Source: Caulobacteraceae bacterium (GTDB lineage: Bacteria; Pseudomonadota; Alphaproteobacteria; Caulobacterales; Caulobacteraceae). From it: 64,000 nucleotides of DNA. A program made the translations under genes and the position numbers. The notes below the pieces were generated by a model, which saw only the letters and a list, made by a program, of their open reading frames with translations, made no database searches and was not told where the DNA came from. Below are positions 22,399 to 27,612 of the stretch, piece after piece; the first letter of the stretch is position 1; every line of letters starts with the position of its first letter. The stretch is taken from positions 1 to 64,000 of the forward strand of contig JAUJMO010000003.1 in NCBI GenBank assembly GCA_030446805.1, read 5' to 3'.

Positions 22399-22664
22399 CT
22401 ACTGGATCGTCGCTTCGGTGGCGTGCTCGGCCAGGATGGTCAGGCCCTCGCCCGTGACGTCGGCGAAGCCGCCGCGGATGCCGAAGACGCGCCGCTTGGC
22501 CCCGTCCAGCACGATGACCTCGCCCTCCTGGAGCGTGGTCATGAAGGGCGCATGCCCGGCCAACACGCCGAACTGGCCTTGGCTGCCCGGCGCAATCACC
22601 TGGTCGACCTCGCCGGCGTAGAGCTCGCGCTCGGGCGCAACGAGGGAGAAGCGGAGCTTGGCCA

Positions 22665-22665
<1 letters not shown>
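22399..22665 (-). CDS. atpC: ATP synthase epsilon subunit
   Basis: An 88-residue epsilon subunit of F1, part of the central rotor stalk. It contains essentially only the N-terminal beta-sandwich (LRFSLVAPERELYAGEVDQV, GQFGVLAGHAPFMTTL) and lacks the long C-terminal helical hairpin of E. coli epsilon, the usual alphaproteobacterial short form. Its ATG overlaps the atpD stop by one base. Confidence 0.95.
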
Positions 22666-24233
<1,568 letters not shown>

Positions 24234-25166
24234 TCAGCCCCTTCGACGCGTGGCGACCGGGCGGCGCAGCACGCGCCGCAGAACCGCCTCCGCGAAGAAG
24301 CCGGGCCGAACGCCGACCCGACGTCCATTCCGACGGGGCCACACCCAACCCCCGGTACGCACGTCGGCCGGGAGCCGCACGGCGAGTCGTCCAGCCTCCG
24401 GATCGGAGATCATGGGCGTGTAGTAGACGCAGCCTTCGAAATAGAAGTGGACCACCAGCGAGCGGCGGGTCGCGCCTTCTCGCGTGATCGGCGAACCGCC
24501 GTGCACCAGATTGGCCGCCCAGACGAAGGCTTGGCCCTTGCGCACAACCGCGTGCTCCGGCGCGATCCCGCTGGCGTCGATGCGGGCGTCCAGGGCGGGC
24601 TGGTAGAGCCGGTCGTAGTCGGCCGGCTCCGGATCGGGCCGGTTCAGCCCCGCGCCCCGCATGGTCAGGATCGGCAGCTTGTGGCTCCCCGGCCAGTAGA
24701 CCAGCGCGCCCGCGTCCAGGGCCACGTCCTCCAGCGCGATCCAGACGCCGCACATGAACAGGGGCGGGTCGCTGTGGAAGTGGATGGCGTCGGAGTGCTT
24801 GGGCTGCTCGGTTCCGACCTGGAAGCTGAGCGTCTGGAAAGGGAAGGGGTCGCGCCCGTAGACGGTGCGAAGCGCGGTCAGGATGCGGGGGTGGATGGCC
24901 AGCGCCTTGACCGCCGGCGAGCGGCGCCAGGCGTCCTGCACCCGCTGAACCGACGGGTCGTCGAACCAGGCCCGCGTCTGGTCCACGGCCTGGTCGCACA
25001 GCCCCGGCCCCCCCGGGCCGAGGTCCAGGACGCCGTAGCCCTTGTCGCGCAGGGATCGGGCGAAGGCGCGCGTCTCCGCGTTGGCGCCCACCCGGTCAAG
25101 CTCGGTCTCCAGCCTGTCCGTCTCGACGAACGGGACCTCCGGCGGGCTGGAGCGCCCGGCCGGCAC
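24234..25166 (-). CDS. phytanoyl-CoA dioxygenase-like protein inside the atp operon
   Basis: A 310-residue Fe(II)/2-oxoglutarate-dependent oxygenase of the PhyH superfamily. The metal triad is visible as H131-x-D133 (HFHSDP) and H222 (NLVHGGSP), with a following arginine (R234/R235) for 2-oxoglutarate. Substrate unknown. It begins with GTG only two bases after the atpG stop and runs in the same direction, so it must be translated from the atp transcript. The basic C-terminus (about 280-310) is Arg-rich. I know of no link between this family and ATP synthase. Confidence 0.8.
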   Translation of the reverse strand: MPAGRSSPPEVPFVETDRLETELDRVGANAETRAFARSLRDKGYGVLDLGPGGPGLCDQAVDQTRAWFDDPSVQRVQDAWRRSPAVKALAIHPRILTALRTVYGRDPFPFQTLSFQVGTEQPKHSDAIHFHSDPPLFMCGVWIALEDVALDAGALVYWPGSHKLPILTMRGAGLNRPDPEPADYDRLYQPALDARIDASGIAPEHAVVRKGQAFVWAANLVHGGSPITREGATRRSLVVHFYFEGCVYYTPMISDPEAGRLAVRLPADVRTGGWVWPRRNGRRVGVRPGFFAEAVLRRVLRRPVATRRRG

Positions 25167-25168
25167 CG

Positions 25169-26047
25169 TCAGATCGCCTCGGAACCGGCGATGATCTCGA
25201 TCAGCTCCGTGGTGATCCGGGCTTGGCGCTGACGGTTGTAGAGCAGGGTCAGGTCGCCGATCAGCTCGCCGGCGTTGCGGGTGGCGTTGTCCATGGCCTG
25301 CATGCGCGCGCTCTGCTCGCCCGCGGCGTTCTCATACAGCGCCGACAGGATCTGGATCGCGACGTTGCGGGGCAGCAGCGTCTCCAGGATGGACTGTTCG
25401 TCCGGCTCATAGGTGTAGACGGCGCCGTTCAGGTCGACGGGCCTGGCGCCCGCTTCGACCACGGCCGGGATCAGCTGGCGCGCGCTCGGCACCTGGCTGA
25501 TCACCGAGCGGAAGCGGCTGTAGAACAGGGTCACCACATCGGCGCGACCTTCGTCGAACTCGCGCAGGATCAGGTCGGCGACGGGCTGGGCCGCCTCCAG
25601 GCTCAGCGTCTTGGTCGCGGACAGATCGAAGCTCTCGACCACCCGGGTCCCGAACAAGCGTCGAAGCGGGTCGCGCGCCTTCTTGCCCACAGCGACGATC
25701 CGGACCTCGCGCCCTTCCCGCAGCAGGGTGTTGATCCGGTCACGAGCGGCCCGGACGATGCCGGAGTTGAAGCCGCCGGCCAAGCCGCGATCGGCGGTGG
25801 CCACCACGATCAGGTGCCGCTGCTCGGAGCCCGTGCCGGCCAGGAGCCGGGGCGCGTCGGCCCCGCTCACGCCCGCGGCCAGATTGGCGATCACGGCCGC
25901 CATGCGCTCGGCGTAGGGACGCGCGCCGGTGGCGGCGTCCTGGGCCCGGCGCAACTTGGCGGCGGCGACCATCTGCATGGCTTTCGTGATCTTCTGCGTG
26001 GCTTTCACGCTTCCGATCCGATCGCGCATGTCCTTGAGGCTGGCCAT
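25169..26047 (-). CDS. atpG: ATP synthase gamma subunit
   Basis: A 292-residue gamma subunit forming the rotor shaft of F1. The N-terminal ([20 protein letters not shown]) and C-terminal ([17 protein letters not shown]) helices of the coiled coil are well conserved, around a Rossmann-like middle. Start set at ATG 26047; the frame extends upstream into the antisense of atpA. It lies 17 bases after atpA. Confidence 0.97.
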
Positions 26048-26064
26048 GGGTCGGCGGGCTCCGC

Positions 26065-27612
<1,548 letters not shown>

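Follow-up and report, generated by a model that had tools for sequence, protein, structure and literature searches.

Several described Fe(II)/2-oxoglutarate (2OG) oxygenases resemble the product of phyH, a gene found between the ATP-synthase genes atpG and atpD in the 64,000-nt stretch of Caulobacteraceae DNA analysed here (the window). Human PHYH (2a1x) and PHYHD1 (2opw, 3obz) share with it the Pfam profile, the fold (Z of 18.3 and 18.2, respectively) and the HxD...H...R set of residues. The AlphaFold2 model of the phyH product had a mean pLDDT of 93.9 and exhibited a double-stranded beta-helix like that of PHYH (2a1x, rmsd of 3.5 over 226 residues in VIA-align). The identity to the two human proteins was nevertheless only 18–20% in the structural alignment and 14–18% in that of Foldseek. 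Moreover, phyH is a bacterial gene within an atp operon, and an acyl-CoA substrate like that of human PHYH is not implied for its product.

The best VIA-align match was EctD (4mhr, 3emr; Z of 19.2, rmsd of 3.0 over 225 residues, 18% identity), which was tied with the next ones, namely SnoN, GriE, SnoK, PHYH, PHYHD1 and a proline hydroxylase (Z of 18.1–18.7). No ectoine-hydroxylase model was present among the NCBIfam matches of the phyH product up to an E value of 1. SnoN and SnoK were the top matches in Foldseek, and SnoK was also the best sequence match in the PDB (E = 2.5e-6). The SnoK carbocyclase and the SnoN epimerase (5epa, 5ep9) are tailoring enzymes of nogalamycin and were 17–22% identical to the phyH product, whose gene neighbours are, in contrast, ATP-synthase genes.

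Oxygenases that act on proteins of core machines offer another comparison. YcfD and PPHD are 2OG oxygenases of this kind, and a PhyH relative in the g29 genomes adjoins rpsL. However, YcfD and PPHD (ribosomal and EF-Tu oxygenases) belong to other fold subclasses, and no protein hydroxylase, these two included, was recognised among the best 50 matches of each fold search (Foldseek and VIA-align). A structure-based comparison with protein and lipid hydroxylases had been suggested by an earlier sequence-only reading of this DNA. The top solved structures with recognised substrates were mostly those of enzymes acting on small molecules. The best 50 Foldseek matches also included an RNA-editing-complex protein and SyrB2, which acts on a carrier-protein-bound substrate.

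The phyH gene and its place in the atp operon

The gene order on the minus strand of the window was found to be atpH-atpA-atpG-phyH-atpD-atpC. The features are as follows.

26065–27600, minus strand: atpA, F1 alpha subunit (open reading frame; name recognised, matches upstream of atpG in relatives)
25169–26056, minus strand: atpG, F1 gamma subunit (open reading frame and Pfam; the codon-usage call puts the start at 26047)
25177–25180, minus strand: GAGG, Shine-Dalgarno-like, within the end of atpG and 10 nt before the phyH GTG (read from the sequence)
24234–25166, minus strand: phyH, predicted PhyH-family Fe(II)/2OG oxygenase, 310 codons (310 aa), GTG start at 25166 (open reading frame, Pfam, dN/dS and model)
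24795–24797, minus strand: H124 codon, putative first iron ligand (from invariance)
24789–24791, minus strand: D126 codon, putative second iron ligand (from invariance)
24501–24503, minus strand: H222 codon, putative third iron ligand (from invariance)
24465–24467, minus strand: R234 codon, probable 2-oxoglutarate-binding Arg (invariant in the alignment)
24126–24233, minus strand: phyH-atpD gap of 108 nt, with neither a sigma-70-like promoter nor a terminator-like site
22665–24125, minus strand: atpD, F1 beta subunit (open reading frame and Pfam)
22399–22665, minus strand: atpC, F1 epsilon subunit (open reading frame; name recognised, matches downstream of atpD in relatives)

The location of a PhyH-like gene between atpG and atpD, which had been noticed from the sequence alone, was confirmed by the open reading frames and by Pfam for all three genes, and a separate gene call based on codon usage gave the same boundaries for phyH. 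The reported start two bases after atpG also held, with the atpG stop at 25169–25171 followed by the phyH GTG at 25166. On the other side, 108 nt separated the end of phyH from the atpD ATG at 24125. No sigma-70-like promoter or terminator pattern was observed in 23900–25400 on either strand. The same orientation, the 2-nt gap and the lack of such patterns suggested that phyH is very probably co-transcribed with the F1 genes. Since the promoter scan covered the sigma-70-like type, joint expression, which had earlier been described as "necessarily made with F1", is rated as likely.

The phyH product matched the Pfam profile PF05721 (PhyH) with an E value of 3.8e-18 and 67 bits, compared with a cut-off of 22. 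In an alignment of 44 rows (without A1, L064, L066, L068, L049, L050 and L075, and with new bounds for L052), H124, D126, H129, H222 and R234 were invariant in all 44. H131, D133 and H222 had been proposed as the catalytic residues. H222 stood up to this comparison, but H131 and D133 both varied among the aligned rows and were ruled out as iron ligands, the invariant pair being H124 and D126. In the PhyH family, the Arg that binds 2-oxoglutarate lies about 11–12 residues past the last His, and R234 (H222+12) was presumed to be this residue. With the PhyH profile and the invariance of H124, D126, H222 and R234, the impression of an intact 2OG oxygenase was borne out. The protein is thus predicted to be a PhyH-family Fe(II)/2OG oxygenase.

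For phyH, the comparison of the window with its congener gave a dN/dS of 0.16 and that of two genomes of the genus g11 a dN/dS of 0.22, compared with 0.06 and 0.08 for atpG in the same two genome pairs. These values demonstrated that phyH is under purifying selection and is a maintained gene. A pseudogene or a chance open reading frame was rejected by dN/dS, the invariant triad and the confident fold. The GC3 of phyH (0.904, window median 0.891) gave no sign of a recent foreign origin. Its codon usage was average (rank 17 of the 47 window genes), unlike that of a highly expressed gene. The phyH gene is a member of a known enzyme family at a new address. In the open-licence PMC literature, neither PhyH together with atpG and atpD nor PhyH in an alphaproteobacterial ATP-synthase operon was found, and titles and the starts of abstracts there yielded no described function for this PhyH subfamily.

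Distribution of PhyH genes and occupancy of the atpG-atpD junction

With relatives counted at E ≤ 1e-40, PhyH genes between atpG and atpD were found in nine genomes belonging to three families of the order. The idea of a strain-specific oddity, which the sequence-only reading had left to be checked by a survey of the Caulobacterales, was therefore rejected. Within the Caulobacteraceae, 35 of 390 genomes had a relative (37 genes in total), of which 4 were at atpG-atpD, 10 between a HIT-domain gene and clpA, 10 at fabB-fabI (in nine genomes) and 13 elsewhere. The four copies adjoining atpG were those of the window's genome, its congener G017, and G027 and G039, both of g11; atpD followed phyH in G027 and G039, and the contig of G017 ended past phyH with the atpD side out of view. 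Another g11 genome, G010, had an ordinary atpG-atpD junction and a PhyH copy elsewhere. In the two g11 genomes with phyH at the atp site (loci L006 and L007, the same as L036 and L037), the first ATG, GTG or TTG of phyH found near the match was ∼70 nt past the atpG stop, although the frame was open from that stop onwards.

Among 398 genomes sampled from the order, 16 outside the Caulobacteraceae had a relative, located at atpG-atpD in five, between rpoC and rpsL in four and elsewhere in seven (in one of these before clpB). The five atp-site copies differed in form: phyH alone filled the junction in G623 and G403, was followed by an OsmC gene in G490 and G573, and had an opposite-strand open reading frame on each side in G579. 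At the same threshold, 3 of 60 genomes had a relative in the family of G490 and 6 of 62 in that of G623. A class-wide sample contained a relative in 3 of 385 genomes, the window's included, and the short loci of the other two showed no atpG.

The copies away from the atp genes were often in other core operons as well. In ten g7 genomes phyH lay between the HIT-domain gene and clpA, with a further gene before clpA in one of them. In nine g22 genomes it lay between fabB and fabI, although in one of these contigs only SGNH-phyH-fabI was visible. The copies between rpoC and rpsL were those of four g29 genomes (assigned by Pfam for L190 and by eye for the others). The close relatives at HIT-clpA, fabB-fabI and other places had the same invariant active-site residues, and ATP-synthase genes were absent from the stretches read around them. 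At the atp, HIT-clpA and fab sites, phyH was co-directional with the preceding operon gene, G579 excepted.

Two further features of the fab locus were observed. A gene that looked SGNH-like by eye preceded phyH in 7 of the 9 genomes (e.g. L128:7158–8036 and L130:7222–8091); the two that were scanned had no Pfam match. Such a partner was also sought for the window's genome and none was found in the 10 genomes searched, in a search that had no positive control. In G270 (L157:5963–7854), a tandem pair of PhyH genes from different subclades was located between fabB and fabI.

The junction was then considered in genomes without PhyH there. In the Caulobacteraceae, 48 such junctions were read (from the 28 genomes matching AtpG best and 20 chosen ones, including G010), and in 47 of them the estimated atpD start lay –8 to 206 nt from atpG. 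In G152 (genus g3, L174:2398–3029), the junction was occupied by genes for a FitA-like antitoxin and a PIN-domain protein. A second survey covered 30 hand-picked genomes, all lacking a PhyH match at 1e-40, from two other families. Two of them had no visible atpD and an in-frame stop in L219 made its gap meaningless, leaving 27 readable junctions. Twelve of these contained an OsmC gene (11 of them in g33), one an opposite-strand glycosyltransferase-like open reading frame, two an 84-aa open reading frame and one a 319-nt gap, and 11 were short. Overall, the loci with OsmC were L183, L187, L205–L208, L210–L212, L214–L216, L218 and L227, in the first two of which it came after phyH. L187 also had a LysE gene between atpA and atpG.

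The premise that atpG and atpD are almost always adjacent thus applied to most junctions of the Caulobacteraceae (47/48 of those without PhyH) and failed in another family (OsmC in 12/27, hand-picked). The presence of OsmC, the FitA/PIN pair and other genes at the junction demonstrated that atpG and atpD are only loosely kept together in this order and that the junction is permissive for insertion. The F1 gene order is considered to be under strong selection, and according to PMC5709465 any unexpected break of the transcription unit would be disadvantageous. Against that general statement, the gamma-beta junction was broken in many genomes by different genes.

History of the PhyH subfamily

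A tree was made of 43 chosen PhyH proteins, a subset of the copies found. Seven of the nine atp copies, together with the clpA and fab copies, formed one clade of 19 rows (support 99/98), and the remaining two (G573 and G579) were in a second clade of 11 rows (100/98). The label "atp" required six changes on the tree, and at least three of these changes, which may be gains or losses, were forced by well-supported (starred) branches. The label was more clustered than in most shuffles, with a number of changes as low in 9 of 500. A single clade of all nine atp copies was rejected (p-AU = 7e-43). G490 and G573, which belong to one genus, had PhyH genes of different subfamilies between atpG and atpD, with OsmC coming next in both cases.

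Nevertheless, neither a single clade of the large clade's seven atp copies (p-AU = 0.15) nor one of the four Caulobacteraceae atp copies (p-AU = 0.41) was rejected. A single old insertion followed by losses and moves would therefore need less recurrence. All rows of the large clade from outside the Caulobacteraceae sat at atp, implying that the atpG-atpD junction may be the old address of the subfamily, from which some genera moved it to clpA and fab.

The ATP-synthase trees disagreed on the position of g1, which was placed either with g3/g4 (g1 represented by AtpG alone) or with g15. The p-AU was 0.057 when g1 and g11 were joined and 1.6e-5 when the four carriers were joined with G010 left out. 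A sister relationship between the two Caulobacteraceae genera with phyH at atp was among the ideas not retained.

Possible functions of phyH and reasons for its address

The explanation that we prefer, with a probability of roughly 0.6, is that phyH encodes an accessory PhyH-class oxygenase that is kept in core operons and most likely hydroxylates, or oxidises in some other way, either a free small molecule or a precursor of membrane lipids or glycans, rather than the ATP synthase. It would be translated from the atp transcript in coupling with the end of atpG. A patchily distributed gene of this kind might survive where it is co-directional inside strongly and constantly expressed operons, and the gamma-beta junction would be one of several tolerated sites and maybe the old home of the subfamily. 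This explanation draws on the family assignment, the invariant residues, the purifying selection, the position, the shared junction and the relatives in other core operons, its substrate side being a prediction. Relatives of the gene were at atp in a few other species and also in other essential gene sets, so phyH is more likely a passenger profiting from steady expression than a modifier of the ATP synthase. Several observations fit less well: the average codon usage of phyH is not of the highly expressed type, 13 of the 37 Caulobacteraceae copies and 7 of the 16 outside were away from the atp, fab, HIT-clpA and rpoC-rpsL sites, and the SyrB2 and RNA-editing matches do not favour a free small-molecule substrate.

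The main interest of the locus would accordingly lie not in a modification of F1 but in one oxygenase family residing in several core operons across the order, with at least three forced changes of the atp label. It amounts to a natural experiment on what brings accessory genes into essential operons, be it constant expression, protection from loss or function, and a small number of genomes emerge where one could look for the substrate of a PhyH subfamily.

A narrower form of this explanation, compatible with it and close to the earlier proposal of a membrane lipid as substrate, is that the enzyme works at the inner membrane, helped by a basic C-terminal tail, and that its hydroxylation substrate is a lipid or a glycan precursor linked to a lipid. 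It was considered less likely than not. All 13 C-terminal tails examined had a net charge of +2 to +6, and some relatives lay among genes for glycans (rfb-like genes in the case of L073, ABC exporters in those of L063 and L067, all named by eye). The paralogue in the window's own genome (L132, on contig C1 near 1199 kb, 34% identical) was beside two DUF707 genes, with a gene nearby that looked by eye like a sugar-nucleotide transferase. The fab and the phasin/GDPD neighbourhoods are lipid-related. However, many relatives looked solo by eye, and no partner gene was common to all contexts seen. An amphipathic C-terminal membrane helix, which the basic charge would fit, was rejected because in 11 of the 13 tails the moment was reached by at least 5% of shuffles.

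It is rather unlikely that the junction is merely permissive for insertion and that PhyH came there by chance and was retained neutrally, gaining nothing from the address. The variety of other occupants (OsmC in 12 of 27 hand-picked junctions, the opposite-strand glycosyltransferase-like frame, the 84-aa frame and the FitA/PIN pair) would fit this view. On the other hand, the purifying selection on phyH was clear, the address is common to distant families, and members of the same PhyH family were found in several core operons.

The sequence-only reading had also suggested that the enzyme could hydroxylate a subunit of the ATP synthase. We regard it as improbable that PhyH hydroxylates an F1 subunit, or is itself a partner of F1 in assembly or regulation, in step with the supply of oxygen and 2-oxoglutarate. 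A tie of this kind could account for a long-kept address inside the F1 genes of nine genomes in three families. Two PhyH subfamilies were present at the atp site (G573 and G579 having the second), and the large-clade rows from outside the Caulobacteraceae were all at this site. A precedent is offered by the known modification of ribosomal protein L16 and EF-Tu by prokaryotic 2OG oxygenases. If phyH served F1, the gene would be expected to stay with the F1 genes in its relatives; instead, close relatives were found at other loci, clpA and fab among them. In all three families, most genomes had no relative at E ≤ 1e-40 (35/390, 3/60 and 6/62 had one). In AtpG, AtpD, AtpA and AtpC, no column separated carriers from non-carriers, where a residue present in at least 80% of the 7–9 rows with the gene and in less than 20% of the 19–51 rows without it was required; a target residue conserved in all genomes would be missed in this way, and AtpH (4 non-carrier rows) and the Fo subunits lie outside the comparison. 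The relatives in other core operons, the lack of a tracking column in these four subunits and the mostly small-molecule folds together make an F1 hydroxylase unlikely. A more general version, in which the PhyH enzymes of the order would be oxygen- and 2OG-dependent hydroxylases of the core proteins encoded next to them (F1 gamma/beta, RpsL/RpoC, FabB/FabI and ClpA/ClpB) and would thereby make energy metabolism, translation, lipid synthesis and proteolysis responsive to the oxygen supply, was considered highly improbable.

A minor observation concerned AtpD itself. In 4 of the 7 atpG-atpD gaps examined (L081, L082, L112 and L121), AtpD seemed to have a Lys/Ala/Pro-rich N-terminal extension that is absent from the AtpD of the window.
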